Virus record (IMG/VR): IMGVR_UViG_3300043778_000135
Coordinates: 1 to 32,938 of that record
DNA from: a virus
Length of the DNA: 32,938 nt
Direction: 5' to 3' (one strand)
Shown: piece by piece, positions 52 through 30,210 of the stretch
How positions within the stretch are numbered: position 1 is the first letter of the stretch
Layout: each line of letters starts with the position of its first letter
Translations under genes and position numbers: made by a program
The notes under the pieces: model-generated
Seen by the model: the letters and a program-made list of their open reading frames with translations, nothing else
What the model was told of the DNA's origin: nothing
The model's database searches: none

Positions 52-264
52 CTATTGAAGCTTCACATCTAGCAACTCGTCGGCCAGTGACGCCAGCGCG
101 GCTTTGGCGGCGTCGATCGATGCACGACGGCCTTGAGGCAACACGACGCCGAACTCGTAGAGCAATTTCAGGATTGGAGACCAGGCCAAGATCGACGTCG
201 ATCCGCCTCTCGCCATGTGGAACGACTGAGATGACCAGGACGGCTCCATCCGATTACCTGGCAC
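52..264 (-). pseudogene. Possible IS110-family transposase fragment
   Basis: This short open frame contains the string EFGVVLPQGR followed by an Ala/Leu-rich helix. That resembles the segment found in IS110-type transposases just after their N-terminal DEDD domain (EFGxVxPxG pattern). Neither the catalytic DEDD residues nor the C-terminal Transposase_20 domain is present, and the frame stops after about 70 codons, so at best it is a remnant. It lies downstream of the 3' end of the peroxidase/glycyl-radical gene, on the same strand. The match is from memory of the family and could be fortuitous. Confidence 0.35.
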
Positions 265-312
265 GAGCCGCGGCTACCGCCGACCGCCACGAACATCCGT
301 TGGTACACAAAT

Positions 313-345
313 CATCCCATGCAGATGGGTCTTCTGCATGGGATG
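313..345 (-). terminator. Hairpin after the DyP-glycyl radical enzyme gene
   Basis: A perfect 13-bp inverted repeat (313-325 with 333-345) encloses a 7-nt loop, 17 bp past the stop codon of the minus-strand fusion gene. Read on the minus strand it is followed by only a short T-containing stretch (ATTTGTGT). It is therefore a plausible but not ideal intrinsic terminator or 3'-end stabilising hairpin. Confidence 0.5.
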
Positions 346-361
346 CGCTTCGTCGAGCTAC

Positions 362-3300
362 CTATCGCCCCGCATGAAACGGACATTGCCTGCCCGGATC
401 CACTTTCACCTCCTCCGGCAAGGAAACGGGACGCCGCCGATGTTGCTCCTGGATCACCGGAAACACCGATGTGAAGAAGTTCGTCCAGCCGCCGGTGCGA
501 ACGCGAAGCAAATCGTATTTCTCAGGCGAGCCGATTGCATCGGCGAAGGTGTCCGGGTTCGCCACGGTCACGGTCAAAATGTTGGATCCCTTTCCTTGCG
601 CAAATTGACGCAGAACTTGCTTCAATTTCTCGGCCGGGAAATCCTCGGCGATATTGAAGTCGCTCGGTGCGCCATCGGACATCAGGCTCGAGCCGCTCCC
701 TTCAAAGCCTGCCAATGCTTCGGCGAAGCCGGCGTACTGATGCTCGACCGGCAAATCCGCCGGACTCGGCGCCGCGCTCATGTCGGAGGCGACCGTCGTG
801 CCCGTTCGTCTGCCGTCCGCGCTGGCGCCGTTCCAGGCTCCCATCTCCACATGGTTTTCAAATGTGCCGACGCCGGGCTGAATCTGAATTCCGAACGGAT
901 GATCGGCCGTCCCGTATTTGCTCGCGAAGCTCTGCAGGGTGTCGCGCAGCTGCGGCCAAGGCTGGGTAAACGTCTCGATCGAAATCTGCGCCACCAGCTC
1001 GACGATGGTATTGCCGAAGGCGTCGATTTCCGCATGGCCGCGGCCGTAGCGGGGCAGTGACAACGCCACTTCGCGCAAGCGCTTGAAACGGTCGGCGCGC
1101 GCCGTGATCCGGCTTTCCCCTGCGAGCTTGCTGATGAAGGGCTCCGTCATCTTGTAGCCCCAATCGCAGCACAGGCATTCCAGCAACTCGGGCAAGGTGG
1201 TGACGGCGGTCTCGTCGTCGAACACCAGGCGCTTGATCGCGTACAGGGAGTTGATGGTGGAGCTGAGCGCAATATAGCAAGGGCCATAGATGTTGTACTT
1301 GGCCCCACCGCTGTAGAAATCCAGGCCTTTGGCCAGGCAGTCGTCCATCAACGCATTCAGGATCGGAGACGGGCAATACTGGGTATTGTTGCCGTAGCTC
1401 ATCAACTGGCCGTTGAACGCCTTGCGGTTGAGCCATTCGAAATGCTGCCGATACAACGCCAGCAACGCGTCGAAGCTTTCGATCTGCTCGGCCGGCCTCG
1501 TGGTCAGCGATACCGTTTGGCCGAACAGATAGCTTTGGCCCGCGCTGGAATAGGTCCTGCCTTGATTGAGCGCGCACTCCAGCGGCTGCAACGTGGAAAA
1601 GCCGCCTAACGAGAACCAGTTTTCGCCGGGGAACTGGGGCTCGTAGCAGCCGTCGCACGCATAGTTCTGCGCCGATTTCATCTCCACGGCCGACCGCCAC
1701 GCCTTGTTGCCTTGCAGCGGCTCGCCGCCGACGTCGTCGCCGCTGCGCCACAGGCCCTCGATGAGCGTCTCGTCGTTCAGCAGGATAGGATGCGCGCCGC
1801 CCGATAGTATCGCGTGCGCGGCTTCTTCCAGGATCTCGTCCGGGATGTCCTTGCGGGTGCGCAGCGACAGGCACGGCGCATTGAGCGGCAAGCGGCCGGA
1901 TGCGCGGATGAACAGGCGGGTTACGTCGTTGTAGGCCGGCTTGGTCTTCGCCATATCCGTCTCGCCGTCCGCCACGGTCCCGCCGACGGTGATCTGCTGG
2001 ATCCATTGACCGAGCGAAGCGCCCTGCGGATAAGGTCCGGAGCTGCCGCCCATCGCCAGATTGCCGAACGGCTGATGGTCTTCCATGAAGATGCGGTTCT
2101 GTTGGATCTTTTCGTCGAGCTTGATGTAGAAGGCGTCGATGATCTCTTGCGCTTCCTCGAGCGTGATGGCGTCCCGGTCGAGATAGGGTTGCAGCAGTTG
2201 GTCCATGCGGCCGAATGCCGTCGGCTCGCCGTTCAAGTGCAGGCAGGTGTGCAACGTGAAAATGAATTGCACCGCTTCGACGAAGCTGCCGGGTTTTTCC
2301 GTCGCGAGCTTGCGCATGCGCCGTTCGATGGCCGTCAGATTCTGCTGCTCCCACGCCTGGCCCGGCTGCATGTCCTGCGCCATCTGCTTGGCCAGATCGG
2401 CATAGTTCATGAAGTACTCGGAAATACCTTGCAGCGCCAATGCCGTCGATTGATAGAGCTCCCGCTGCTGCTGGGTGGCGGCCTTCCTTTCGTATTGCGC
2501 GACCTCGTTCAACAGCCCGCTAAGACCAAGGTCGAGGGCTTTCCGGTAATCGGGAATGACGTGGCCGACGCCGGAGGCTTCGCTCAAGTTGGCAAGGAAC
2601 CCGTTCAAGCGCTCGGCTTCGCTCAGGTATTTCATCACGTAGCGGCCTTCGCCCAGCGTCAGGTTCGGCATGGCCCCGACGATGATTTCCTCGGGGAAGA
2701 TGCGGAAGGTGTCGGAGCCGTACACCACGGTCCCTTCTTCTTCCTTCGCTGCGGAATACGGGATCAGGCGGCCGTCGCTCAAGTGGATGCGCCGGCCGCG
2801 GAAACCGTATTCCGGCGACGTGAACAGGTGAAGGCTCAGGCGGATCGCCCAGCCCTTGCGCAACATGATGGATTCCCGCATAACGTCGGCCGGCTTGCCG
2901 GGCAAGTCGAACTGCGCCATGTAATACGCGATGTCATGCTCGATTTCTTCCTGCTTGCGGTTGAAGTACCAGTTGTCTTGCCACAGCGAGAAGGCATTCT
3001 CGAGCAGGCTCAGTATCCGGTTCGATGGCGCCTCGAAATAGTCGCTGCGTTTATTCAGCTTGGTCGCCATGTTGAACAGGTAGTTGCTGTGGTTGTAGTA
3101 CATCAACCCGTTCTCGGAGGCGACCGTGAAGTGGCGATCCACCCTCGACCAGTCGACGCCCGGAAATTTGTCCCACGTGCCGCGATTCAGCGCATCGAAG
3201 TTATTGGCATAGGCGTCGTCGTCCAGCAGCCCGAGATCCTGCAGGCTGGGAACGTAGAAGAATCCTCCCAGGTCCGAGCGCAGATGATTGAACAGACGGT

Positions 3301-4273
3301 CGTTCATGAAACCATGAACGGCGCCGATCTGGTTTTGCATGACATCCTCGAGGATGCCGATCTCCTTGGCAAAGCCGGCAAAATAGATGCCTTCCTCATC
3401 GGCGGCGGTCACGGACTTCGGGTTGCGAAAGGTCGTGCCGGTTTGCGCATTGCCGAAAGGCAGGCCCAGGCGCAGCACCGGCGTGGTGTTGCCGAACTCG
3501 TCCTGCACGCGCGACGCCTTGATGTGCGAGCGGGTATCGCGGTCGGGGATGATGGTGTCGTCGGTTTTTCTGCCAATCAGATCTTCGATTTGATCTTCCG
3601 ACATCATGTTGATTTGATCCCAGTTGATCAGGAATCGCTGCGACAGAACGAACGACGCGCCGAAGTGCTCGACATCGTCCACGCCGACAATCGAATGTTT
3701 CGCGAGCGAGATCGGATCGGACGGATTGTTCAGGTTCTCGGCAAAGCGGCAACCGAGCACTCTGCCGCCGTTCGGCTTGTCGCTGCCGCCCGATTTGCTG
3801 GCCGCGCTTTGATGAAACGAATCACGGGTGTTTTCGCGCAGCCAGTTCTCGGTCAATTCCAGCACGATGTCGCACGCTTTAGCGTCGTCGCTCTTAATGT
3901 GGAACCAGAGGTTTGCCTCCGAATCCTTGAAGTTGCCGTTGGACGCGTCGAAGACCTTCGAGCGGAGGGGATGATCGTCCTGCGGGTAGCGCAGTCGCAT
4001 CCCTTTGGGCAGGGGCATCTTCTCCTGCTCGCAAATCAGGGCCCAGTTTTCGAAGGACACGCCGGCAACCAACGTAGTGTTCTTGCTGCCGAGCCGCGGG
4101 TCGGTGTTGATCTCGCGCCGGACCTCCTGCATCAGCATCGCAAGCTCGCTTCGGGTAATCGGATTCTTGAGCCAGAAACTCGAAAAAATCGCGAAAGGCG
4201 CGGGGTAAACCAGGCCGCGTTGCGTATGTTTCCAGACCTCGGTGAAACGCTCATTGAATGTCAGTTCGCTCAT
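362..4273 (-). CDS. DyP-type peroxidase-like / glycyl radical enzyme fusion protein
   Basis: A 1303-residue two-domain protein. Residues about 1-460 resemble dye-decolorizing peroxidases. There is a GCRFAENLNNP segment near 174-184 where DyPs carry GFxDGTxNP, so the usual distal Asp is replaced by Glu. SHIKASR near 249-255 corresponds to the proximal-heme-His region, followed by RLGLPFG and EEGIYFAGF. Residues about 480-1303 form a full-length glycyl radical enzyme domain. The catalytic loop GCYEP puts the thiyl Cys at 876 and Glu at 878, the Cys-x-Glu pattern of lyases and dehydratases rather than the Cys-Cys of pyruvate formate-lyase. The C-terminal VRTGGWTNFF box puts the radical Gly at about 1262 (canonical VRVSGYxxxF). 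The substrate is unknown. No radical-SAM activase is encoded in the window. The start at 4273 has no strong ribosome-binding site. The 268 bp upstream hold no gene and end at an IS3-family remnant. Confidence 0.88.
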   Translation of the reverse strand: MSELTFNERFTEVWKHTQRGLVYPAPFAIFSSFWLKNPITRSELAMLMQEVRREINTDPRLGSKNTTLVAGVSFENWALICEQEKMPLPKGMRLRYPQDDHPLRSKVFDASNGNFKDSEANLWFHIKSDDAKACDIVLELTENWLRENTRDSFHQSAASKSGGSDKPNGGRVLGCRFAENLNNPSDPISLAKHSIVGVDDVEHFGASFVLSQRFLINWDQINMMSEDQIEDLIGRKTDDTIIPDRDTRSHIKASRVQDEFGNTTPVLRLGLPFGNAQTGTTFRNPKSVTAADEEGIYFAGFAKEIGILEDVMQNQIGAVHGFMNDRLFNHLRSDLGGFFYVPSLQDLGLLDDDAYANNFDALNRGTWDKFPGVDWSRVDRHFTVASENGLMYYNHSNYLFNMATKLNKRSDYFEAPSNRILSLLENAFSLWQDNWYFNRKQEEIEHDIAYYMAQFDLPGKPADVMRESIMLRKGWAIRLSLHLFTSPEYGFRGRRIHLSDGRLIPYSAAKEEEGTVVYGSDTFRIFPEEIIVGAMPNLTLGEGRYVMKYLSEAERLNGFLANLSEASGVGHVIPDYRKALDLGLSGLLNEVAQYERKAATQQQRELYQSTALALQGISEYFMNYADLAKQMAQDMQPGQAWEQQNLTAIERRMRKLATEKPGSFVEAVQFIFTLHTCLHLNGEPTAFGRMDQLLQPYLDRDAITLEEAQEIIDAFYIKLDEKIQQNRIFMEDHQPFGNLAMGGSSGPYPQGASLGQWIQQITVGGTVADGETDMAKTKPAYNDVTRLFIRASGRLPLNAPCLSLRTRKDIPDEILEEAAHAILSGGAHPILLNDETLIEGLWRSGDDVGGEPLQGNKAWRSAVEMKSAQNYACDGCYEPQFPGENWFSLGGFSTLQPLECALNQGRTYSSAGQSYLFGQTVSLTTRPAEQIESFDALLALYRQHFEWLNRKAFNGQLMSYGNNTQYCPSPILNALMDDCLAKGLDFYSGGAKYNIYGPCYIALSSTINSLYAIKRLVFDDETAVTTLPELLECLCCDWGYKMTEPFISKLAGESRITARADRFKRLREVALSLPRYGRGHAEIDAFGNTIVELVAQISIETFTQPWPQLRDTLQSFASKYGTADHPFGIQIQPGVGTFENHVEMGAWNGASADGRRTGTTVASDMSAAPSPADLPVEHQYAGFAEALAGFEGSGSSLMSDGAPSDFNIAEDFPAEKLKQVLRQFAQGKGSNILTVTVANPDTFADAIGSPEKYDLLRVRTGGWTNFFTSVFPVIQEQHRRRPVSLPEEVKVDPGRQCPFHAGR

Positions 4274-4540
4274 GATCGTATTTTCTGATTAAGGTGGATG
4301 CTTGTGGGAACCGTTCGGAGTTGCTGCCGCGCCTGAGACAATGGGTTTTGTCGCGATAGCCCACTTCGGGGCGAGCACGGTCGATATGAGAAGGAATGCA
4401 TTACGAACGCAGCGGGTAAAACAGTTCAGCAGAAGTTTGTTGGGCGCCGTTTTTTTTCATTTGCCCTTTTCCGAAGAGGAACGAACAACGTGGTTGCACC
4501 GAGATCCCAGCACGGGCCTCTTAAAGTATGGAAGAAATAT

Positions 4541-5370
4541 TCTGACCTTACCCCGCCGAGTACACCATTCGTAATTTAGTGGGCACGCCGGCTTTCGGTT
4601 GATGCAGTTGCCGGAATTGGTCCGGAGCCAGTTGCCCTAAGGCGCTATGCGGGCGCACTGAATTGTAGTCAGTGCGCCAGGCTTCGATTCGCATGCGTGC
4701 ATCAGTCGATGACTGACAAACGCATGCTGGTTCAAACATTCTTCACGCAGTCGGCCGTTGAAGCTTTCGATGTGCGCGTTTTCCACCGGCTTGCCTGGAC
4801 GGATGAACTGCAGCTTGACGCCATGTTCGTGCGCCCAGGCATCGAGCGCCTTGCTGACGAACTCCGGCCCGTTATCCACCTGAATCAGGTTGGGACATCG
4901 TCCTCGTTGCCGCAACTGCTCGAGCACACGCACCACGCGTACCCCCGTTAGCGAGAAGTCGACCTCGATGTGCGGGCACTCGCGGTTCCGCGCGTCGATG
5001 ATCGTCAACATGCGTATGCGTCGGCCATGCACCAGCGCGTCAGCAACAAAGTCCATCGCCCAGCTTTCGTCTGCGCCGTTGGGCGTCGGCATGACTACGC
5101 GTAGATGACTCGGGCGTTTCTTGCGACGTTTCAGGCGAAGCGATAGGCCTTCCGACACGTCCATGCCGCCGTAACGGCTACGCCAGTTATAGAACGTCAT
5201 CCGATATGCCGTGTTTGCGGCACAGGTCTGCGACCTTCATGCCTGCGTCGGCTTCCTTCAGCACCCCGATAATCTGCTCTTCGCTGAACCGCGACTTCTT
5301 CATGACAAGGGTTCTCCTGCCGCCTTGCCACTAACTTTACAGTGGGATACTTCAGAGGGGAAAGGTCAGA
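4541..5370 (-). mobile_element. Internally deleted IS3-family (IS407-like) insertion sequence
   Basis: The ends are imperfect inverted repeats that both begin TCTGACCTT (left from 4541, right reading inward from 5370). Between them lie an orfA-like N-terminus and an orfB integrase region in one minus-strand arrangement. At about 830 bp it is shorter than the roughly 1.2 kb of the group, because the middle is missing. No matching target duplication is visible (ATAT on the left, CGCG on the right). This suggests an old insertion, or an adjacent deletion or recombination. It sits between the deaminase gene and the glycyl radical enzyme gene. Confidence 0.8.
4548..5303 (-). pseudogene. Broken IS3-family transposase (orfA/orfB, deleted and frameshifted)
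   Basis: The orfA start at 5303 reads MKKSRFSEEQIIGVLKEADA and the helix-turn-helix KVADLCRKHGIS. A one-base indel near 5200 then shifts it into a stop. The next frame resumes with TFYNWRSRYGGMDVSE and jumps directly to GLSLRLKRRKKRPSH, which belongs well inside orfB, so the end of orfA and the start of orfB are deleted. The rve integrase core follows (WAMDFVADAL, DNGPEFVS and ESFNGRLREECLN supply the DDE residues). A second frameshift near 4705 separates the C-terminal piece containing DYNSVRPHSALG. The product cannot be functional. Confidence 0.85.
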
Positions 5371-5446: not shown

Positions 5447-6658
5447 TCAGCTCAGCGCGTGAATCAGCGCCTGATCGGCGACTTGCACCGGCTTGACGCC
5501 GATCAGCTGGCTATAGAGCGGCGGCAGCGTCGAACAAAAATCCTCAAGTTGGGCTTGAGGAATCGCGGGCCTCACGTATTGCAGCGGCGAAGGATTTTCG
5601 GGGACCAATTCGCCCTCCATCGTCGAGCCGTATGCGCCGAGCTCCATGATGCTTTGCGAACTGGTGTCGGGGCCGATCGACATCACAAACGTGCAGTACT
5701 TGGGATGGCCCAGATATTTCAACGTATCGGCTACCCCGAGTCCGACGAGCTTGCTGCGAATCTGCGCGTAAGTCCGTGTGACTTCGAGATACGCGCGCCG
5801 GATGCGCGACTGGCCTTCGAACCCCGGCAGGCATAGCAGCAGATAGCCGCGATTGTCGAGCATCGCGACGGCGTGGCCCGTCCCGCCGTTCTTCTTGTCC
5901 TCGTTCATCGCCGTTTGCAGGAATGAAGCCAAACCCTTATCCGGAGCAAACGGACGCGCTGACTTGTATTGAAGCGCTTGGGGATAGCGCGCCTTCAGTT
6001 CCTGGACGATCGGGTTGTTTGGCGGCAGCTTGCCCAGATCGAGGAGATCCTTCAACGGCAGATCCCGATTGATCTTGTCCCTGATGTCGGTCAGCGTCGA
6101 TGTGAAGATGCTGCTGCAAAGCGCAACGGTGCTGCCTTGCAATTTGCTCCCGCCGGACAACGGCGGAATATTCGGCTTGCCCTGCCGCGCCCGGTTGAAA
6201 CAATGGCCGTCTTCCACTTCCGGGTAAGCGAACGTCTCCAGCGCCTGCGTTTTCTGCGGGCTGCGCAGCGACGGAAAGTCGAATTTGGTGTTCCAATTGA
6301 TTCCGGCATAGGTATCGAACGCCGCCACCACGACCTTGAATCCGGCTGTCAGGATCGCCCCCGTGCACATGCAGCAAGGATCGAGCGAGGTGATGACGGT
6401 GATCTGCTCCGGGGGGGGCAGATGCAAGGCATCCTTGTTCGCGTAGTACCAATCCACCAGTTGCCGCTCGCCATGGGCGGTGGGATCGTTAATGCGTTCG
6501 TTCTCGACGACCCGGTTCGATAAGGCATGCAGCACGTTGCCGTTATCGTCGACGAGCGCGCCGCCCACGCCGAACGTCCCTCTGCAATTCGCCGATACCG
6601 CTTCGAGCGCGGCGATCGACATGGCGGACTCCACGGATGTGACTTTCGTTTCGGGCAT
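5447..6658 (-). CDS. Zinc-dependent nucleoside/base deaminase-like protein with C-terminal extension
   Basis: A 403-residue protein. Residues about 20-130 carry the cytidine-deaminase-like zinc site: TAHGE with His62 and Glu64, and SLDPCCMCTGAI with Cys95 and Cys98 (HxE...PCxxC). This is the arrangement of cytosine, guanine and tRNA-adenosine deaminases. The substrate cannot be read from sequence. HGE instead of HAE is a minor variant. The remaining 250 or so residues do not match a family I recognise; they could be a second, non-catalytic deaminase-like or substrate-specificity domain. The ATG at 6658 is preceded by AGAGG at suitable spacing. The gene has the same orientation as the DyP-glycyl radical enzyme gene, which lies downstream beyond the IS remnant, so the two may once have been cotranscribed (inference). 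Confidence 0.8.
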   Translation of the reverse strand: MPETKVTSVESAMSIAALEAVSANCRGTFGVGGALVDDNGNVLHALSNRVVENERINDPTAHGERQLVDWYYANKDALHLPPPEQITVITSLDPCCMCTGAILTAGFKVVVAAFDTYAGINWNTKFDFPSLRSPQKTQALETFAYPEVEDGHCFNRARQGKPNIPPLSGGSKLQGSTVALCSSIFTSTLTDIRDKINRDLPLKDLLDLGKLPPNNPIVQELKARYPQALQYKSARPFAPDKGLASFLQTAMNEDKKNGGTGHAVAMLDNRGYLLLCLPGFEGQSRIRRAYLEVTRTYAQIRSKLVGLGVADTLKYLGHPKYCTFVMSIGPDTSSQSIMELGAYGSTMEGELVPENPSPLQYVRPAIPQAQLEDFCSTLPPLYSQLIGVKPVQVADQALIHALS

Positions 6659-20350: not shown

Positions 20351-21826
20351 ATGTCCAATGGATTGCCGGTATCGCGCCTGATCAATGTCTCGATCAACAT
20401 GTCGCCGCTCGCGGCGCAGGGCGCGAACCTGAACACGGCACTGATTCTCGGCGCGTCGGCCGTCATCGATACCACCGAGCGTCTGCGCGCCTACGGCAGT
20501 ATCGATGCGGTGACGGCCGACTTCGGCACCAATGCGCCCGAGTATGTCGCGGCCGCCCTGTACTTCAACCAGACGCCGCAGCCGCGCGCCCTGTGCATCG
20601 GCCGCTGGGCCAAGACGGCGACCGCCGGTTCGTTGCGCGGCGGCGTGCTGTCCGCGGCGCAGCAGGACATCGGCGCATGGCGCGCGATCACGGCCGGCGC
20701 GTTCAAGATTTCGGTCGACGGCGCCGCGAAGAGCGCATCGGGTCTCGACTTCTCGGCGCAGACCAACCTGAACGGCGTCGCCACGGTGCTCAACACGGCA
20801 TTCCCGGGCGTGACCTTCGCCTGGACCGGCCAGCAGTTCGTCGCGACGTCGGGCACGACGGGCGCGAAGTCGACGGTCGGCTATGCGTCCGCGCCGCAGG
20901 CCGGCACCGACGTGTCGGCGCTGCTCGGCCTGACGAGCGACGTCGCCGGCGCGCCGGTCGCCGGCATCGCGGCCGAGCAGCCGACCGATGCCGTCGCGCT
21001 GTTCCTCGATCGTTTCGCGAACCAGTTCCTCGGCCTGTCGATCGCCGACGCGTCGGTCGCCGACGATCAGCACATCGCGGTCGCGAACCTGATCGAGGCG
21101 GACCAGCGTCACCTGTACGGCGTCACGACGCAGAATCCGCAATCGCTCGACGCCACGGTGGCGACCGATCTCGCGAGCCGTCTCAAGACGCTCAAGCTCA
21201 AGTACACGATCGCGCAGTATTCGAGCGCGTCGCCGTATGCGGTGGTGTCGCTGCTCGGCCGGCTGTTGACCGTGAACTTCAACGGCAACAACACGACGAT
21301 CACGCTGATGTTCAAGCAGGAGCCGGCCGTGGCGGCCGAGGCGCTCACCACGTCGCAGGCAAACGCGCTGCAGGCGAAGCGCTGCAATGTGTTCGTCGCG
21401 TACAGCAACGACACGTCGATCATCCAGCAAGGTGTGACGCCGAGCGGGATCTTCGCGGATTCGGTCTACAACGCGATCTGGTTCCGCAACCGCATCGAGA
21501 CCGACGTCTACAACCTGCTGTACCAGAGCCCGACCAAGGTGCCGCAGACCGACGCCGGCAACGCACAGATCGCCGCGCAGATCTCGGCTGCCTGCGAGGC
21601 GGCGGTGAACAACGGCTATCTCGCCGCGGGCGTGTGGAACAGCGCCGGTTTCGGCGCGCTCGCGCAGGGCGACACGCTGGAGAAGGGCTACTACGTGTAC
21701 GCGCCGCCGATCGCGACGCAGTCGCAGGCCGATCGCGAGGCGCGCAAGGCGGTGCCGTTCCAGGTCGCCGCCAAGGAAGCCGGCGCGATTCACAGCGTCG
21801 ACATCCTCATCAACGTCAACCGGTAA
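20351..21826 (+). CDS. Contractile tail sheath protein (DUF3383 family)
   Basis: A 491-residue protein with AGGAGT before the ATG at 20351. The N-terminal [20 protein letters not shown], the [20 protein letters not shown] segment and the C-terminal part with [13 protein letters not shown]-like charged helices match DUF3383 sheath proteins of Pam3-type and related myophages. The sheath polymer surrounds the tube and contracts to drive it through the target envelope. A 15-bp gap separates it from the tube gene, so they are co-expressed. Length is typical for the family. Confidence 0.88.
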
Positions 21827-21841
21827 GGAGAGGAAATCAAC

Positions 21842-22282
21842 ATGGCAACCTACAGTTTCCAGGACGTCACCGCGACGCTCGTCGGCCCCGGCGGGGTCTT
21901 TTCGCTGGGCTCCGGCTCGGGCAACGCGGACGAAGGCATCACCATCGCGGCCGCGGGTGACAAGAACACGATGACCGTCGGCGCCGACGGCGAGGTGATG
22001 CACACGCTGCACGCCGACAAGTCCGGCACGGTGACGATCCGTCTGCTCAAGACCTCGCCGTCGAACGCGAAGCTGATGTCGCTCTATCAGGCCCAGTCGC
22101 TCGACAGCCGCCTCTGGGGCAAGAACCTGATCGCGATCGGCCAGGCGGCCGCGGGTGATGTCGCGACGGCGCGCACCTGCGCGTTCAAGAAGGTGCCGGA
22201 CATCAAGTACGCGAAGGATGGCGACGTGCTCGAGTGGGTGTTCGACGCGGCCAAGATCGACCGGATGCTCGGAGCGTACTGA
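21842..22282 (+). CDS. Tail tube protein (DUF3277 family)
   Basis: A 146-residue protein with AAGGAGAGG upstream. ATYSFQDVTATLVGPGGVFS at the N-terminus and DIKYAKDGDVLEWVFDAAKI at the C-terminus are characteristic of DUF3277 tube proteins, which stack as hexamers to form the inner tube inside the sheath. It immediately follows the sheath gene and precedes the tail chaperone, as in all related contractile tails. Confidence 0.88.
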   Translation: MATYSFQDVTATLVGPGGVFSLGSGSGNADEGITIAAAGDKNTMTVGADGEVMHTLHADKSGTVTIRLLKTSPSNAKLMSLYQAQSLDSRLWGKNLIAIGQAAAGDVATARTCAFKKVPDIKYAKDGDVLEWVFDAAKIDRMLGAY

Positions 22283-22284
22283 CC

Positions 22285-22809
22285 ATGGCGACGGAAATCG
22301 AATTGAACGGCGAGCGTTACGCCGTCGGCAAGCTGAGCGCGCTGCAGCAGTTTCATGTGTCGCGCCGGATTGCACCGATCATCCCGTCGCTGATCCCGGT
22401 CCTGATGCGGTTCGCGACCGGGTACGACGCGCTCGTCCCGGTCCGCGGGCCGGCCGACGCGCCGGAGGCGGCGGGCGCTGCGGACGCCCGGGAGGACGCG
22501 GGCGCGGTGCGCGACGTGCTGCGGATGGTCGATGTCGTGACGCCGGTGCTGCAGCCGTTCGCGGATGCGCTCGCGGGCCTGCGCGACGAGGATGCGGAGT
22601 ATGTGTTCGGCACCTGCCTGTCGGTGGTCGAGCGGCGCCAGGATCACGGCTGGTCGCGCATCTGGTCGCCGGCCCAGCAGACGGCGATGTTCGACGACCT
22701 CGACCTCGGCGTGATGCTGCCGCTCGTCGCGCGCGTCGTGATCGCCAATCTCGGCCCTTTTATTCGCGGGCTGCTTACCAGCCAAACGAGCAGCCCGGCG
22801 GCGATCTAG
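22285..22809 (+). CDS. Tail assembly chaperone, zero-frame product
   Basis: A 174-residue product starting 2 bp after the tube stop. It begins MATEIELNGERYAVGKLSAL, with the Q-F-H-V-S-R-R element seen in tail assembly chaperones of this phage type. An Ala/Asp-rich linker lies at about residues 52-72. It ends in NLGPFIRGLLTSQTSSPAAI. Equivalent to lambda gpG: it should coat the tape measure during tail assembly. A slippery heptamer at 22755-22761 lets a fraction of ribosomes continue in the -1 frame. Confidence 0.8.
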   Translation: MATEIELNGERYAVGKLSALQQFHVSRRIAPIIPSLIPVLMRFATGYDALVPVRGPADAPEAAGAADAREDAGAVRDVLRMVDVVTPVLQPFADALAGLRDEDAEYVFGTCLSVVERRQDHGWSRIWSPAQQTAMFDDLDLGVMLPLVARVVIANLGPFIRGLLTSQTSSPAAI

Positions 22810-23000
22810 GCTGGATCCGGACGCTGCCCGGGGGCGAGGACTGGATCCTCGCTCCCGTCCTCGAGGGGCTCTGCACGTTCGAGAGCCTGAAGGACGGGAC
22901 GCTGGATCTGGCCGACGTCGCGTTGCTGAACGACGCGCTCGCCGTCCGGGCGGACAACCACGCGGCCCTGCGCCGCAAGCTGGAGCGGGAACATGGCTGA
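22285..23000 (+). CDS. Tail assembly chaperone, -1 frameshift product (GT-like)
   Basis: Codons 1-159 are in the first frame (to 22761). After a -1 slip translation resumes with the codon at 22761-22763 and reads YSRAAYQPNEQPGGDLGWIR, then EDWILAPVLEGLCTFESLKD, stopping at 22998-23000, about 238 residues in all. The second part is a recognisable conserved C-terminal domain (the GGDLGWI...LAPVLEGLC type seen in DUF6889-like proteins) that has no start codon or ribosome-binding site of its own. By analogy with lambda gpGT it would link the chaperone to the tube protein. Its stop overlaps the tape measure start at 22993. Confidence 0.78.
22755..22797 (+). promoter_or_regulatory. Programmed -1 frameshift signal: CCCTTTT plus hairpin
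   Basis: C CCT TTT (22755-22761) is an X XXY YYZ heptamer in the correct frame. After a 5-nt spacer, CGGGCTGCT (22767-22775) pairs perfectly with AGCAGCCCG (22789-22797), a 9-bp stem with a 13-nt loop. Confidence 0.82.
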
Positions 23001-25278
23001 CACCTATGAGATGAGCGAACCCCTGGTCATTCCACGGTTCCGGTTCGACGACAAGGGCGACAAGAAGAAGCTCGACGACTTCAAGACGAGCGTCGAGGAA
23101 ATGGCCAAGAGCGTCGGCGATCTGTTCAAGAAGGTCTCGGACGGCGCGAAGCAGGCCGGGAACGAGCTGGTCGCGCTGACCGCGAAGGTCGAGAAGCTGA
23201 ACGACGCGGCGGGACGCAAGGGCACCGGAACGAAGCGCCAGAAAGTGCTCGATATTGCGGCCGGCGGCGTCGAGCAGATCTCGGAAGGCGCGAAGAAGGC
23301 AGGCGAGGGCCTGGTCTCGGTGGCCGAGAAATACGAGACCCTGTATTTCGCGTCGCGGCGCGCAGGCGCCTCGGCGGCGAACCTGAAGGCGTTTGAATAC
23401 GCGGCGCGCGACGTCGGCGTCACCACCGAAGAGGCGGAGGAGGCCGTCGGAAACCTGTCGGATGCGTTGAGCAGGACGCCCTCGAACGAAGGTCTCTTGA
23501 AGAAGATGGGCATCCAGACGCGCGATGCCAAGGGCCAGCTGCGCGACTCGGCGGAACTGCTCGCTGAAATGGCCGCGCGCATGGACAAGCTGCCGGCCGG
23601 CGAAGCGAGGAAGCTGGGCGAGACCTTCGAGATCGATGACAAGACCTTGTCCGCGCTGCGCGACGGGGATTTCGCGAAGTCGTTCGCGCGCAATCGCGAG
23701 GTGATGCGGAAGACCGGCCTGAACCAGACGGCGGACGACGCGCATCGGGCGGCGGCGGAGCTGCGCGAACTGGGCGTGACGTACGACAACCTGGTGCTGC
23801 AGGCGCAGGGTGCGCTGCTGCACGGCGCGGGGCCGCTGATCAAGCAGTTCCGGCAATGGACCGACGAGCATCGCGAGGTGATCGAGAAGCGTGGCGGCGA
23901 AGTGGCGGGCGTGGTCGGAAAGGGCACCGAGGTGGTGGGCGGCGGGGTGCTGTTCGTCGCGGACCAGTTCGCCGCCCTCGATACGGCCACGGGCGGATGG
24001 TCGACGCGCCTCATGCTGCTGATCGGTGCGTTCAAGGTGCTGGGCGGGAGCAAGCTGATCGGCGGAATCAAGGAGCTGGTGGAGGCGCTGGGTTCCGTGG
24101 GCGAGGCGATCGAGGCAACGGAAGGCGGCGCGGCAAAGGCGGGCCTTGCGAAGCGGATCGGCGGCGGCGTCAAGCGGATGGCCGGCTGGGTCGCCGAGAA
24201 GGCGGGCACCCTGCTGGAGCGGGGGCGCGGCGCGGCCGGACGGATGTGGACGGGCGCCGGCAAGCTGATGGAGCGCGCGGGGCCGGTCGCGCGCGGAGCG
24301 ATGGAGCGTACGGGGCTGTTCGTGCGCGGGGCGGCGGGGCGTGCGGGGCCGCTCGTACGCGGGGCGCTGGGCGAGATCGGCGGATTCGCGGGTCGGGCCT
24401 GGCCGTGGGTGGGTGGGCCGTTGGCGGCGGGGCTCGAATTGATGCTGTATAGCGGGGGAATGAAGAAGGACGAATTCGAGGACGTCCGTGAGTGGCAGGC
24501 CAAGGCGAAAAAAATCTGGGATGCGAAACAGGCGTCGCCGTCGGGTGATCCCGGCGCGGGGCGCGGTCTTGCCCATTCGATGTTCGCGCAACTGATCGCA
24601 CGCGGCGAGGGCGACTATGGCTCGGTCAATCGCGGCAAGGCGCATGGCTACAAGTCAGGCGCCGAGGACCTGGAGAACATGACGGTCGCGGAGGTCATGG
24701 CGGCGCAGCGCAGCCACCGCTTCAACGCGGCCGGGCGCTACCAGATCATCGGCGACACCTTGTCGGACGCGGCTGCGTCGCTGGGGCTGAGCGGAAGCGA
24801 GAAGTTCGACCGCGGGATGCAGGACCGGATCTTCGAGGACTACCTCGTCAAGACCAAGCGGTGCGGCATCATGGATTTCGTGACGGGGAAAAGCGGCCAG
24901 GTGCGCGATGCCGTATACGCGACGGCGAAGGAATGGGCAAGCGTGGCGGTCCCCGCCGGCATGCGGACCGAATCCGGACGGATTTCGGATGGCCGGATGA
25001 CGTTCTACGACCGTCAAGGCAAGAATCGCGCGTCGATCACGGAAGCGCAGATGACCCAGGCGATCGAGAACACGCGGGCGATGTACCAGATGCCCGGGCT
25101 CGACGGCGCGGCGGGCTTCGGCGACGCGGCGGGCCCGCGCCCGGTCGAGATCCGGCAGAACGTCACGATCGAGATCAACGGCGTGCAGGATGCGGGCGCG
25201 ACCGGCCGCGAAGTGGCGCGCCACCAGGCGCGGGTCGCCAACGACCTGGCCCGACAAGTGGGAGGGGTGCTGCAATGA
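22993..25278 (+). CDS. Tail tape measure protein with C-terminal muralytic domain
   Basis: A 761-residue protein. Residues about 15-80 are charged coiled coil (KLDDFKTSVEEMAKSVGDLF). Residues about 380-500 are a Gly/Ala-rich, partly hydrophobic region with repeated MERAGPVARG- and LVRGAL-type units, a likely membrane-active part. Residues about 530-690 look like a lysozyme or transglycosylase (ARGEGDYGSVNRGKAHGYKS with probable catalytic Glu539, AAGRYQIIGDTL, and QDRIFEDYLV), similar to the GH104/lambda-R type. The tape measure sets tail length and is ejected into the target. At 761 residues and about 1.5 angstrom per residue it would give a tail near 110 nm (rule of thumb). Its stop overlaps the next start by ATGA. 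Confidence 0.88.
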   Translation: MADTYEMSEPLVIPRFRFDDKGDKKKLDDFKTSVEEMAKSVGDLFKKVSDGAKQAGNELVALTAKVEKLNDAAGRKGTGTKRQKVLDIAAGGVEQISEGAKKAGEGLVSVAEKYETLYFASRRAGASAANLKAFEYAARDVGVTTEEAEEAVGNLSDALSRTPSNEGLLKKMGIQTRDAKGQLRDSAELLAEMAARMDKLPAGEARKLGETFEIDDKTLSALRDGDFAKSFARNREVMRKTGLNQTADDAHRAAAELRELGVTYDNLVLQAQGALLHGAGPLIKQFRQWTDEHREVIEKRGGEVAGVVGKGTEVVGGGVLFVADQFAALDTATGGWSTRLMLLIGAFKVLGGSKLIGGIKELVEALGSVGEAIEATEGGAAKAGLAKRIGGGVKRMAGWVAEKAGTLLERGRGAAGRMWTGAGKLMERAGPVARGAMERTGLFVRGAAGRAGPLVRGALGEIGGFAGRAWPWVGGPLAAGLELMLYSGGMKKDEFEDVREWQAKAKKIWDAKQASPSGDPGAGRGLAHSMFAQLIARGEGDYGSVNRGKAHGYKSGAEDLENMTVAEVMAAQRSHRFNAAGRYQIIGDTLSDAAASLGLSGSEKFDRGMQDRIFEDYLVKTKRCGIMDFVTGKSGQVRDAVYATAKEWASVAVPAGMRTESGRISDGRMTFYDRQGKNRASITEAQMTQAIENTRAMYQMPGLDGAAGFGDAAGPRPVEIRQNVTIEINGVQDAGATGREVARHQARVANDLARQVGGVLQ

Positions 25279-25850
25279 CGTTCGACATGGTCTTGCTATC
25301 GAGCAAGTGGATCGACAACATCGAGATCGCAGTCTCGATCGAGGAGCAGTACAACGACGAGCTGACGATCGTCGATCATCCCGTCGAGAACGGGGCGCAG
25401 ATCAGCGATCACGCCTATCGCCGGCCGAGCGAAGTGATCCTGCAGTGCGGCTGGTCGAACGCCGATTACAAGGCACTGCTCGGCGCGTCGCAGACGAATT
25501 TCAACGGCACGCTGTCGAACCCGGACTACGTGAACGGCGTGTATTCGCGCCTGCTTGCGCTGCAGCAGCGGTGCGAGAGGTTCAACGTCACGACGAGCCG
25601 GCGGCGGTACAGCAACATGCTGATCGCGGGGCTCGCGGTCAGCACCGACGTGAAGAATCGCGCGGCGTTGATCGTCAAGGCGACGCTGCGCGAGATCCTG
25701 GTGGTCGACACGAAGGCGACGACGCTCGCGCCGAGGGCGAATCAGGCGCAGCCGGCCGCGACGTCGGAACTCCAGGACCAGGGCACGAAGCAGCTCGCGC
25801 CCGCCAACCCCGCGCCGGGCGGCGCGTCTCCACCGGACCAATGGCGATGA
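25275..25850 (+). CDS. Dit-like baseplate/tail protein
   Basis: A 191-residue protein starting at the ATGA overlap with the tape measure. The region IEIAVSIEEQYNDELTIVDH, then PVENGAQISDHAYRRPSEVI, is the pattern of the N-terminal Dit-like domain of phage tail proteins (split-barrel ring at the tube tip). The last 50 residues are Pro/Ala/Gln-rich linker (ANQAQPAATSELQDQGTK). Position between tape measure and plug matches Pam3-type tails, where this protein connects tube and baseplate. Confidence 0.72.
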   Translation: MTFDMVLLSSKWIDNIEIAVSIEEQYNDELTIVDHPVENGAQISDHAYRRPSEVILQCGWSNADYKALLGASQTNFNGTLSNPDYVNGVYSRLLALQQRCERFNVTTSRRRYSNMLIAGLAVSTDVKNRAALIVKATLREILVVDTKATTLAPRANQAQPAATSELQDQGTKQLAPANPAPGGASPPDQWR

Positions 25851-26155
25851 CGATCTATGAAATCCCGCTTTCGGGCGACAACCAGACCTTCAAGATCTCG
25901 CTGGGCGGCGTGCTGTACCGGCTCACGCTCGTGTATCGCGGGCCCGGCGGCTGGGTGCTCGACATCGCGGATGTCAACGGCGGCCCGCTGGTGGCCGGGA
26001 TTCCGCTCGTGACGGGCATCGACCTGCTCGCGCAGTACGCATACCTCGGCTTCGCGGGCGCGCTGCGGGTGCAGGGCGCGGCGCATCCCGACGATGTGCC
26101 CGACTTCGACAACCTGGGCGCGGGTGCGCGCCTGTACTGGGTGACCGACCAATGA
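25841..26155 (+). CDS. Baseplate plug protein (Pam3 gp18-like)
   Basis: A 104-residue beta-rich protein: MTIYEIPLSGDNQTFKISLG, then VLYRLTLVYRGPGGWVLDIA, then GIPLVTGIDLLAQYAYLGFA. This is the pattern of the small plug proteins (DUF6983/Pam3_gp18) that sit in the baseplate hub. It overlaps the preceding gene by 10 bp (the start may also be the ATG at 25847) and the next gene by ATGA, so all are translated from one message. Confidence 0.75.
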   Translation: MAMTIYEIPLSGDNQTFKISLGGVLYRLTLVYRGPGGWVLDIADVNGGPLVAGIPLVTGIDLLAQYAYLGFAGALRVQGAAHPDDVPDFDNLGAGARLYWVTDQ

Positions 26156-27117
26156 GCACGACTCAATTCGGCCGCAAGGCATCGCTGGTCGTCGGGCCGG
26201 CGGCGGGCGATGCGCTCGACCTGTCGGCGCTGCGTTTCAGCTTCGAGATCCGGCGCGACGACATCCAGACGCTCAACCGCCTGCATGTGCGGATCTTCAA
26301 TGTGTCGGACAACACCGCGAATCGGCTGCAAGGCGAGGAATTCACGCGGGTCGTGCTGCAGGCCGGCTACGCGCAGGGCGCATATGGCGTGATCTTCGAC
26401 GGCAACATCACGCAGACGCGGCGCGGCCGGTCGAGCCCGACGGAAACCGTGATCGAGATCGACGCATCGAGCGGCGATGACTGGTACACGAACGCCGTGG
26501 TCGAGCAGACCTTCGCGGGGGGCTCGACCAGCATGGATCACGTGCAGGCGGCCATCGAGACGATGAAGCCGTACGGCCTGAGCGTCGGCTACCTGCCGGC
26601 ATTCGAGGCGAAGCCGCTGCCGCGCGGCAAGCTCGTGTTCGCGATGGCGCGCGATGTCCTGGAGAACGCCGCGCGCAACCTGGGTGCGGACTGGTCGATC
26701 CAGGACACGCAGTTCCAGATGGTGCCGCAGAACAGCTACATCCCGGGCGACGCGCTCGAACTGAGCTCGAGCACGGGCATGATCGGGATGCCGACCCGGG
26801 AGCAGAACGGGGTCACGGTCAAGTGTCTGTTGAATCCGAAGGCAAGCGTCTCGGGCCTGGTTCGGATCGAGGAGAAGAGCCTGTCGAAGACGGTCGTGAA
26901 ACCCGGCGAAAACGGTGCCGGTTCGCCGGCCAGGACGACAGGCGCCGATCCGGCGAAGCCGCGCAGCGATGGTCTATATAAGATCGTGAAGGTCGAGCAT
27001 GAAGGGGATACGCGCGGCACCGCGTGGTATTCGACGCTGACGTGCGTGGCTGTCGATCAATCGATTTCGCCGTCCGCGACGGGAGGCGGTGTGGGGCCCG
27101 TGAAGCCAAGAGGCTGA
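26152..27117 (+). CDS. Baseplate hub protein (gp27/gpD-like)
   Basis: A 321-residue protein with TTQFGRKASLVVGPAAGDAL, a beta-barrel segment (RIFNVSDNTANRLQGEEFTR, then VVLQAGY) and a C-terminal domain with the DGLYKIVKVEHEGDTRGTAW signature common to hub proteins that bind the spike. A Gly/Pro/Ala linker lies at about 250-270. The hub forms a trimer beneath the tube and holds the spike. It begins inside the stop of the plug gene (ATGA). Confidence 0.8.
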   Translation: MSTTQFGRKASLVVGPAAGDALDLSALRFSFEIRRDDIQTLNRLHVRIFNVSDNTANRLQGEEFTRVVLQAGYAQGAYGVIFDGNITQTRRGRSSPTETVIEIDASSGDDWYTNAVVEQTFAGGSTSMDHVQAAIETMKPYGLSVGYLPAFEAKPLPRGKLVFAMARDVLENAARNLGADWSIQDTQFQMVPQNSYIPGDALELSSSTGMIGMPTREQNGVTVKCLLNPKASVSGLVRIEEKSLSKTVVKPGENGAGSPARTTGADPAKPRSDGLYKIVKVEHEGDTRGTAWYSTLTCVAVDQSISPSATGGGVGPVKPRG

Positions 27118-27255
27118 GTGCGGCCCGCGGGGCGGATGATCGAGCGGTTCCGGTTATGTCGATCATGATTCGCACTGCAAATTACTGGGCGGCGCACGAC
27201 CCGTCAGGCGCACTGCCGGCCGACCAACCAGCAATTCGTTCTTTTTCTTTCAGCG

Positions 27256-28002
27256 ATGGACAAACTTCAGAAATACGGCGATTCGGCGGCCGCACTGCGC
27301 GCCATGCTGCGTACGTCGCGCAGCGATCTCTGGACCGCGCTGCCGGCCATCGTCGATTCGTTCGACGCGGCCCTGCAAACCTGCGCGGTACAGCTGGCGA
27401 TCAAGCCGCAGCGCCAGGCGGCGGACGGCGCCGTGGCCTCGATTCCGTTCAAGGTGCTGGTCGATTGCCCGGTGCAGTTTCCGGCGGGCGGCCAGTGCGC
27501 GTTGACCTTTCCCGTCATGCCCGGCGATGAGTGCCTGGTGGTGTTCGCGTCGCGCTGCATCGACGCCTGGTGGCAATCGGGCGGCGTGCAGGACCAGGCG
27601 GAACTGCGCATGCATGACCTGTCGGACGGCTTCGTGCTGCTCGGCTACCGCTCGCGGCCGCGCGCGCTGACCAACGTCAGCGGGCACTCCACGCAACTGC
27701 GCAGCGACGACGGCGCGACCTATATCGATCTCGATCCGAGCCGGCAGAAGGTGACGATCGTCGCGCCCGGCGGCTTCGACGTGATCGCGCCGCAATCGAC
27801 GTTCTCGGCGGCGGTGACGATCCAGGGCCTGTTGACCTTCGTCGGCGGCATGGTCGGCAGCGCGACGAGCGGCGCGGCCGCGAGGATCAGCGGCGCGATC
27901 GACTTCGTCGGACAGGTGCTGGCGAACGGCAAGCGCATCGACGATACGCATACCCATGGCGGTGTCCAGCCCGGCGGCGGCAACACCGGCAACGTCAACT
28001 GA
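27256..28002 (+). CDS. Membrane-piercing baseplate spike (Gp138/gpV-like)
   Basis: A 248-residue protein. Residues about 1-110 match the Gp138 N-terminal OB-like domain (PVQFPAGGQCALTFPVMPGD, then ECLVVFASRCIDAWW, then HDLSDGFVLLGYR). A beta-helical part follows (VTIVAPGGFDVIAPQSTFSA) and then a C-terminal tip with H232-T-H234 in DTHTHGGVQPGG, the iron-binding HxH apex seen in P2-type spikes. It should puncture the outer membrane. It is separated from the hub gene by 138 bp without a recognisable gene, the largest gap inside the tail operon. The ATG at 27256 lacks a clear ribosome-binding site. Confidence 0.82.
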   Translation: MDKLQKYGDSAAALRAMLRTSRSDLWTALPAIVDSFDAALQTCAVQLAIKPQRQAADGAVASIPFKVLVDCPVQFPAGGQCALTFPVMPGDECLVVFASRCIDAWWQSGGVQDQAELRMHDLSDGFVLLGYRSRPRALTNVSGHSTQLRSDDGATYIDLDPSRQKVTIVAPGGFDVIAPQSTFSAAVTIQGLLTFVGGMVGSATSGAAARISGAIDFVGQVLANGKRIDDTHTHGGVQPGGGNTGNVN

Positions 28003-28011
28003 GGCATTTCG

Positions 28012-28365
28012 ATGCGATACCGAAAACTCGATACCGATGGCGATTACGTGTTTGGCGGGCAATCCGCCGATTTCCTGGCCGATTCTCCCGAGGCCGTCGC
28101 GCAGGCCGTGCTCACGCGCCTGAAGCTGCTGCGCGGAGAGTGGTTCCTCGATACGTCGGCGGGGATGCCGTGGACGACCGAGGTGCTCGGCAAGTACACG
28201 GGAGGCGCCTACGACGCGGCGATCCGCCAATGCATCCTCGGCACGCAGGGCGCGGCGGAGATCACGGACTACGCGAGCACGCTGGATTCCGGGCAGCGCA
28301 CGCTGACGGTGACCGCGGCGCTCGACACCCTTTACGGCCCCACTCAGATACAGGTGACCTTGTGA
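28012..28365 (+). CDS. gp25-like baseplate wedge protein (gpW-like)
   Basis: A 117-residue protein. LDTDGDYVFGGQSADFLADS, then PEAVAQAVLTRLKLLRGEWF, then LDTSAGMPWTTEVLGKY is the standard pattern of gp25/W baseplate proteins, which share ancestry with the T6SS TssE lysozyme-like wedge protein. It nucleates sheath assembly on the baseplate. It follows the spike by 9 bp and its stop overlaps the GTG start of baseplate J. Confidence 0.82.
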   Translation: MRYRKLDTDGDYVFGGQSADFLADSPEAVAQAVLTRLKLLRGEWFLDTSAGMPWTTEVLGKYTGGAYDAAIRQCILGTQGAAEITDYASTLDSGQRTLTVTAALDTLYGPTQIQVTL

Positions 28366-29540
28366 CGCTTTCCACCCTTGCACCCACGATCGACGCGAAC
28401 GGCATCACGGCGCCGGCCTATGCCGATGTGTTGGCGTACCTTCAGGACAAGTTCCGCGCGATCTACGGCGTCGACGCCTACCTCGAACCCGACAGCCAGG
28501 ACGGCCAGCTGCTCGCGGTGTTCGCGAAGGCGATGAGCGACGTCAACGCGACCGCGATCGCGATCTACAACGCCTTCAGCCCGGCCACGGCGCAGGGCGC
28601 CGCGTTGTCGAGCAACGTGAAGATCAACGGCATCGCGCGCAAGCTCGCGTCGTACTCGAGCGTCGACCTGCGGCTCGTCGGACAGGCGGGCGCGACCATC
28701 ACGAACGGCACGGCCCGGGACGAGAACGGCGAGAAGTGGCAGTTGCCCGCGAGTGTCGTGATTCCGCCGAGCGGCGAAATCACCGTGACCGCGACCTGCG
28801 CGCGGATCGGCGCGGTGGCGGCGCGGGCCGGCACGGTGGCGCAGATCGCGACGCCGATGCGCGGCTGGCAGAGCGTGATCAATCCGGCGGATGCGGCCGT
28901 CGGCGCGCCGGTCGAGTCGGATGCGGCGCTGCGGCTGCGGCAGACCATCTCGACCGCGCTGCCGTCGATGACCGTGCTCGACGGGATCATCGGCGCGGTC
29001 GCGAACGTGGCCGGCGTGACGCGCTATGTCGCCTACGAGAACGATACGAGCGACACGGACAAGAACGGCATTCCGCCGCATGCCGTGTCGCTGGTGGTCG
29101 AGGGCGGCGACGCGCAGCTGGTCGCGCAGGCCATCGCCTCGAAGAAGACGCCGGGAGCGGGCACCTTCGGCCAGACGGCGGTGGTCGTCAAGGACGTCTA
29201 CGACCGTCCGATCACGATCCAGTTCTTCCGGCCCGCCGCGGCGCGCATCGTGGCCACCGTCAATCTGAAGGCGCTGGCGGGATATACGACGCAGACCGGG
29301 CAGCAGATCCGGCAGGCGGTGGCGGACTACGTCAACGCGCTGCCGATCGGCGGGGGGCTGTCGGGCAGCGTCGAGTGGGGCGATGCGCTGACGGCGGCCA
29401 ACGGCGTGGGCGGCGGGCGGACCTTCAAGCTCGCGGGTCTCGCGTTGTCCGGACCGCGCGGGAGCGGCGCGCCCGATGTTCCGCTGCTGTTCAACGAAGC
29501 GGCGGCCTGTTCGCCGGACGACGTCACGGTGGTGATCTGA
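28362..29540 (+). CDS. Baseplate J-like wedge protein
   Basis: A 392-residue protein starting with GTG at 28362 inside the preceding stop. IDANGITAPAYADVLAYLQD, then AIYGVDAYLEPDSQDGQLLA, then VFAKAMSDVNATAIAIYNAF are hallmark N-terminal J/gp47 motifs. The middle has TARDENGEKWQLPASVVIP and AGTVAQIATPMRGWQSVINP, and then ESDAALRLRQTISTALPS. It forms the periphery of the baseplate wedge that bears the fibre connectors. It differs clearly from the decayed Mu-like J fragment at 9328-9648, so the two phage tails have different origins. Confidence 0.88.
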   Translation: MTLSTLAPTIDANGITAPAYADVLAYLQDKFRAIYGVDAYLEPDSQDGQLLAVFAKAMSDVNATAIAIYNAFSPATAQGAALSSNVKINGIARKLASYSSVDLRLVGQAGATITNGTARDENGEKWQLPASVVIPPSGEITVTATCARIGAVAARAGTVAQIATPMRGWQSVINPADAAVGAPVESDAALRLRQTISTALPSMTVLDGIIGAVANVAGVTRYVAYENDTSDTDKNGIPPHAVSLVVEGGDAQLVAQAIASKKTPGAGTFGQTAVVVKDVYDRPITIQFFRPAAARIVATVNLKALAGYTTQTGQQIRQAVADYVNALPIGGGLSGSVEWGDALTAANGVGGGRTFKLAGLALSGPRGSGAPDVPLLFNEAAACSPDDVTVVI

Positions 29541-30202: not shown

Positions 30203-30210
30203 GAAGACAA

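Follow-up and report, generated by a model that had tools for sequence, protein, structure and literature searches.

Some of the most difficult steps of anaerobic metabolism are catalyzed by glycyl radical enzymes (GREs). These enzymes are deemed strictly anaerobic, since oxygen destroys both the stored radical and the activase, the dedicated radical-SAM activating protein that known GREs need. A gene encoding a GRE joined in one chain to a DyP-type heme peroxidase, carried mostly by taxa known as aerobes, raises the question of how the radical of such an enzyme might be started and what the peroxidase contributes. The gene lies in IMG/VR virus record IMGVR_UViG_3300043778_000135, analyzed over positions 1 to 32,938; this whole stretch of 32,938 nucleotides is referred to below as the window. 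Comparison with related loci reveals that the activase is missing where the peroxidase is present. We assign a probability of roughly 0.6 to the reading that the fusion is a self-contained, radical-SAM-independent enzyme of the glycyl-radical type that would work in air, with the DyP domain replacing the activase.

Architecture and catalytic residues of the fusion

The DyP-GRE gene is one intact frame of 1303 residues with a single stop. A preliminary description, made from the letters of the window alone, had joined a DyP-like domain and a full GRE in one frame of this length, and translation together with profile matches to both domains confirms it; its coordinates hold, and the strand, which that description did not give, is found here to be minus. 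The features of the gene are as follows.

362–4273, minus strand: DyP-GRE fusion gene, 1303 residues (translation, profile matches, ∼30 full-length homologues)
3224–4222, minus strand: DyP-type heme peroxidase domain, residues ∼18–350, B-type-like (TIGR01413, PDB DyP matches, DyP tree, Foldseek on a low-confidence model)
3737–3739, minus strand: Glu179, replacing the distal Asp of GxxDG (Asp153 of DypB); alignment to 3qnr, invariant in the close family
3524–3526, minus strand: His250, proximal heme ligand (His226 of DypB); alignment to 3qnr, invariant
3470–3472, minus strand: Arg268, distal catalytic Arg (Arg244 of DypB); alignment to 3qnr, invariant
3029–3223, minus strand: linker, residues ∼351–415, with invariant W367, W375, R377, R380, H381, Y393, and H395 (family alignment)
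365–3028, minus strand: complete GRE domain, residues ∼416–1303 (PF02901, PDB and Foldseek GRE matches)
1640–1648, minus strand: catalytic loop Cys876-Tyr877-Glu878 (alignment to 1r8w), Cys and Glu invariant across the clade marked by R-x-G-G-W (GGW clade)
485–499, minus strand: glycyl-radical box Arg1259-Thr-Gly-Gly1262-Trp (translation), Gly1262 codon at 488–490, R-x-G-G-W invariant across the clade
374–385, minus strand: C-terminal CPFH motif, residues 1297–1300, in many but not all relatives (family alignment)

TIGR01413 (Dyp_perox_fam) matches residues 40–346 (E 1.2e-33, 116.8 bits against a cut-off of 100.5), within the first 460 residues where the preliminary description had placed the peroxidase, and PF20628 (Dyp_perox_C) matches residues 182–344 (E 1.5e-12, 48.1 bits against a cut-off of 20). 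The nearest solved DyPs, Rhodococcus DypB (3qnr) and the M. smegmatis enzyme (7bok), are B-type or encapsulin-associated and have the heme His and distal Arg in common with the window protein, and the closest free-standing relatives of the fused domain are encapsulin-associated DyPs at ∼25% identity. Relative to DypB, at ∼25% identity, the window protein carries Glu179 for Asp153, Gly270 for Asn246 (the B-type DyP Asn, by alignment to solved DyPs), and the fused GRE. The GxxDG motif is accordingly not matched: the sequence is GCRFAEN, with Glu for Asp and Asn for Gly, throughout the close family. The altered signature FAENLNNP (residues 177–184) that had been noted earlier is confirmed, and its Glu is invariant among close family members. 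The divergent fusions at loci L058 and L053 retain the canonical motif as FIDGMINP and FRDGISNP, so the Asp-to-Glu change is unnecessary for the association of DyP with a GRE. Nor is this change an argument against activity, because replacement of the Asp by Ala in the B-type enzyme DtpB has no effect on Compound I formation, for which Arg is the required residue (PMC8463360).

In the C-terminal part, PF02901 (PFL-like) matches residues 556–1104 (E 5e-101), and a TIGR01774 match reaches residue 1281. PF01228 (Gly_radical) is borderline, at 18.6 bits in the protein scan (cut-off 22.2) and 23.1 bits in the genome search. Alignment to 1r8w equates Cys876 with the catalytic Cys, Glu878 with the general base, and Gly1262 with the glycyl position, in agreement with the Cys-Tyr-Glu loop and RTGGW box recognized in the preliminary description. 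The standard motif R-V-x-G-Y is absent and R-T-G-G-W stands instead, a variant common to activase-linked relatives. The adjacent Cys-Cys pair of true PFL (formate C-acetyltransferase) is not present, its place being taken by C876-Y877-E878. The best PDB sequence and fold matches are the class II glycerol/diol dehydratases (1r8w, 5i2g), which have the Cys-x-Glu loop and an equivalent of His164 in common with the window protein. The latter differs from them in its RTGGW loop, its lack of an activase, its added peroxidase domain, and its diol-binding positions, where alignment to 1r8w places Glu683-Pro684 at His281-Ser282 and Ser888 at Asp447. The C-terminal CPFH motif resembles a heme-regulatory or KatG-type CPFH motif.

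Both folds are recovered by Foldseek from partial AlphaFold2 models of low confidence, a DyP from residues 1–420 (mean predicted local distance difference test score, pLDDT, 55.5) and exclusively GREs as top matches from residues 104–1303 (mean pLDDT 57.8). Cys876, Glu878, Arg1259, and Gly1262 are invariant in homologues down to ∼27–40% identity, and the heme His and Arg are kept. The ratio of nonsynonymous to synonymous substitution rates (dN/dS) between the window and Trinickia is 0.12 for the DyP and 0.08 for the GRE domain, indicating purifying selection on both. The suspicion that a sequencing error had joined two separate genes is ruled out by the recurrence of the same full-length fusion in ∼30 independent assemblies.

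The architecture is already on record: Zamocky et al. (2016, PMC5041501) described it in Chaetomium cochliodes, stated that it occurs in distantly related genomes, and called its significance "elusive". The fungal and bacterial proteins have the same N-terminal B-type-like DyP and C-terminal PFL-like domain in one chain, and horizontal transfer of the fungal gene from bacteria was proposed; its expression was induced 3-fold by hydrogen peroxide and 18.5-fold by peroxyacetic acid (PMC5041501). That account runs to a few sentences and contains nothing on activase absence, repeated DyP recruitment, or activase-linked sister enzymes. It is the sole paper on the fusion found in a literature search whose scope excluded preprints and most subscription journals. 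The architecture is therefore known, whereas the replacement of an activase by a peroxidase and its repeated origin appear to be new.

Activases and the repeated recruitment of DyP

TIGR02494 and PF13353 by themselves do not single out activases well enough, since weak scores are also given by ferredoxins and other radical-SAM proteins; a clade-specific GRE activase profile was therefore used. With this profile every control genome yields activases, among them independent paralogues at 82–125 bits, but no complete PFL-type activase is detected in 28 of the 29 DyP-GRE genomes; the sole genome with real matches is that of a Shewanella, which also has an ordinary PFL. The best other match among the fusion genomes is a 136-residue fragment in Trinickia terrae (38.6 bits). 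TIGR02494 is concordant, with one of 28 records over its cut-off, and 26 of 27 fusion genomes have no PFL-like gene besides the fusion. The Trinickia fragment (L035:1519–1929) is truncated, starting past the cluster-motif region, and is possibly a relic.

Searches by tblastn at the level of individual loci give the same division. An activase lies beside nearly every fetched GRE locus without DyP and beside none of the DyP-linked GRE loci, most of which were covered with 10-kb flanks. The GRE and radical-SAM activase pairs of Bacteroidota (L054, L055, L094, L095, and L096), which have R-x-G-G-W and C-[Y/W]-E in common with the window protein, form a sister clade without DyP, and in all five the activase gene is immediately upstream. 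The main DyP-less exception without a nearby activase, L059, also lacks the catalytic Cys; its GRE-like gene (L059:964–3447, minus strand) has Ser at this position and a glycyl loop reading RIGGC. Two gammaproteobacterial GREs of ∼1000 residues (L061:769–3774 and L062:796–3789) are followed by a conserved gene of ∼213 residues and have an activase in the wider locus. The preliminary description had offered two roles for the peroxidase, scavenging of peroxide or oxygen and generation of the radical. The absence of the activase exactly where DyP is present and its presence where DyP is absent, together with the repeated acquisition of DyP described below, favor generation as the probable role; scavenging alone is disfavored because it leaves the lack of an activase unaccounted for.

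The GRE domains of all DyP-linked proteins fall with those of the five Bacteroidota enzymes into one clade (support 100/100), marked by R-x-G-G-W in place of the R-V-[AS]-G-Y of other GREs and by C-[Y/W]-E in place of C-[V/I]-E. Within it, the GRE domain of the divergent fusion L053 nests with the activase-linked enzymes and not with the window family (100/99), and a single clade of DyP-linked GREs is rejected by the approximately unbiased (AU) test (p 0.004, smaller tree). The DyP domain of L053 groups with a cyanobacterial DyP (100/100), whereas that of the window family groups with encapsulin-associated B-type DyPs; one origin for the fused DyP domains is likewise rejected (AU p 0.00025). 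Since neither test allows a single clade, the trees are taken to show that this GRE clade acquired a DyP partner on two or more occasions, each time from a different DyP lineage. In Hymenobacter, DyP and GRE are separate adjacent genes; these neighbors (L003:9935–13860, on a plasmid) carry one frame break each, reflecting either error or a pseudogene. As the other GREs in the comparison carry activases, we infer that loss of the activase with gain of DyP is the simpler direction of change.

A peroxidase as the proposed source of the radical, and alternatives

DyPs react with peroxide to form a high-valent heme, and the oxidizing equivalents can pass to surface aromatic residues. In the mechanism proposed here, the DyP heme would react with hydrogen peroxide or an organic peroxide to give Compound I, which would draw electrons from the GRE domain, probably over a long range by way of aromatic residues, and leave a radical on Gly1262 or Cys876. 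The Cys876 thiyl radical would then abstract hydrogen from the substrate, with Glu878 as the putative general base. The DyP domain would thus take the role of the oxygen-sensitive activase, and because the radical may be made afresh instead of being stored, oxygen could be tolerable. Besides the missing activase, the lack of conserved neighbors, the movement of the gene as a one-gene cassette, and the peroxide induction of the fungal gene (PMC5041501) speak for this reading. A precedent for such an exchange of initiators exists in ribonucleotide reductase, in which thiyl-radical chemistry is started by an oxygen-derived metal cofactor in class I enzymes of aerobes and by a glycyl radical made by a radical-SAM enzyme in class III enzymes of anaerobes; the initiator domain is unrelated, and the likeness is one of analogy only. 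Overall, the enzyme probably carries out an elimination with an aldehyde as product, as suggested by the C-x-E loop and by aldehyde and alcohol enzyme genes near activase-linked relatives: an aldehyde ferredoxin oxidoreductase adjoins the GREs of L094 and L095, and an iron alcohol dehydrogenase lies ∼5 kb from the enzyme of L055. Activase-linked GREs of this clade are also followed by a HAD-type hydrolase gene (L094:7071–10193, L095:1302–4326, and L055:6551–7594, the ranges in L094 and L095 including the aldehyde:ferredoxin oxidoreductase). A wider claim is held a little less firmly, at slightly better than even odds: that this would be the first PFL-fold glycyl- or thiyl-radical enzyme with a peroxidase-made radical, and that one GRE clade exchanged its activase for a peroxidase on two or more occasions, an exchange that carried the chemistry into aerobes.

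Several observations weigh against replacement of the activase by the peroxidase. We know of no GRE that is activated except by a radical-SAM enzyme. The loci compared for activases are not phylogenetically independent samples, a single locus underlies each of two DyP-linked examples, and the Hymenobacter copy carries two frame breaks. The partial models (mean pLDDT 55–58) are too weak for the geometry of the heme relative to Cys and Gly. An aromatic residue beside the catalytic Cys occurs in activase-linked members also, so it is not a relay specific to DyP. Finally, every genome has other radical-SAM proteins, three have NrdG-like genes, and an unrecognized one could serve; a putative PFL activase has moreover been reported in Chaetomium (PMC5041501).

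The last two points would also suit a GRE that is activated by an unrecognized radical-SAM enzyme, or only in anoxic spells, while DyP removes peroxide near the radical, a detoxifying role with which induction by peroxide agrees. Such protection is nevertheless unlikely, given that 28 of 29 genomes are without a complete PFL-type activase while every close DyP-less relative has an adjacent one; in addition, peroxidases do not remove oxygen, which is what destroys glycyl radicals, and the gene travels alone. We rate somewhat lower still the idea that the two domains perform consecutive steps on one substrate, so that the fusion would serve metabolic channeling and not activation. Fusion or adjacency is typical of pathway partners, and the oxidoreductase and dehydrogenase genes near some activase-linked relatives suggest a product that may need further oxidation, but DyPs are broad one-electron oxidants, not dedicated pathway enzymes, and channeling would not account for the exact coincidence of DyP with the lack of an activase.

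Two further possibilities concern the GRE domain itself. That it is past radical chemistry and now serves the peroxidase as a scaffold or binding domain would accord with aerobic hosts, no activase, the altered motif RTGGW, and the borderline PF01228 score; the invariance of Cys876, Glu878, Arg1259, and Gly1262, the occurrence of the GGW motif in activase-linked members as well, and the lowest dN/dS being that of the GRE part make this improbable. Least probable, and by our estimate very much so, is direct oxidation of Cys876 by the heme with Gly1262 merely structural, in which case the protein would use peroxide to drive thiyl-radical chemistry and form no glycyl radical. A thiyl radical that is only transient would escape cleavage of the backbone by oxygen, and most DyP-linked members have Tyr877 next to Cys876; the invariance of Gly1262 and its loop, as in the activase-linked relatives, nonetheless speaks against it.

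Distribution, mobility, and significance

A genome scan returned 30 loci, of which 28 are full-length fusions at 57–100% identity, in Burkholderia, Trinickia, Acinetobacter, Pedobacter, Taibaiella, Flavobacterium, Rheinheimera, Shewanella, Marinomonas, Hahella, and others; a homologue 40% identical lies on an Asticcacaulis plasmid. The gene is accessory within genera, occurring in 4 of 119 Acinetobacter, 9 of 99 Pedobacter, and 3 of 300 Burkholderiales genomes. A decayed remnant (L079, G1336:C9, ∼7.2–8.6 kb), which is counted among the three Burkholderiales cases, retains only the C-terminal GRE part. Two distantly related fusions (Asticcacaulis; G304) each have an FGE/SUMF1-like (PF03781) gene directly upstream (L002:8897–9901 and L053:5800–6762, 45% identical to each other), a context these two have in common. 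The surroundings of the gene in the window are as follows.

68–4542, no strand: transferred cassette, ∼4.5 kb, 99.4% identical to a contig of B. cepacia LK29 (L021)
313–345, minus strand: intrinsic-terminator-like hairpin of 13 pairs with a weak T tail, just past the stop codon (hairpin search)
4637–5200, minus strand: IS3-type transposase fragment adjoining the cassette (profile matches)
5447–6658, minus strand: protein of 403 residues, its N-terminus a deaminase domain of cytidine/tRNA type and its long C-terminal part unassigned; no PADLOC match
20351–31752: prophage tail module with tail sheath, tape measure, baseplate hub and wedge, and tail fibre

Positions 308–4503 are also 92.9% identical to Trinickia terrae (L004). 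Alignable DNA stops at the ends of the respective spans in both L021 and L004, and since the flanks fail to align, the gene moves as a single-gene cassette. The hairpin after the stop codon suggests that it is a monocistronic unit; terminator-like sites number 8 in all against 5.8 expected by chance, this one having the longest stem. Among the fusion loci compared, no neighboring gene is conserved beyond close lineages, so that no operon or pathway context is seen in aerobes. A role as phage cargo was rejected, as no relative occurs in viral contigs and the gene sits in a cassette by the transposase fragment, outside the tail genes; a defence system was likewise set aside, PADLOC giving no match.

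If replacement of the activase by the peroxidase is correct, it would constitute a second route to start GRE chemistry, natural, peroxide-driven, and contained in a single polypeptide, parallel to the split between class I and class III ribonucleotide reductases. It would account for the presence of GRE-like genes in aerobic bacteria and fungi, and would offer an activase-free, air-tolerant scaffold for biocatalysis.

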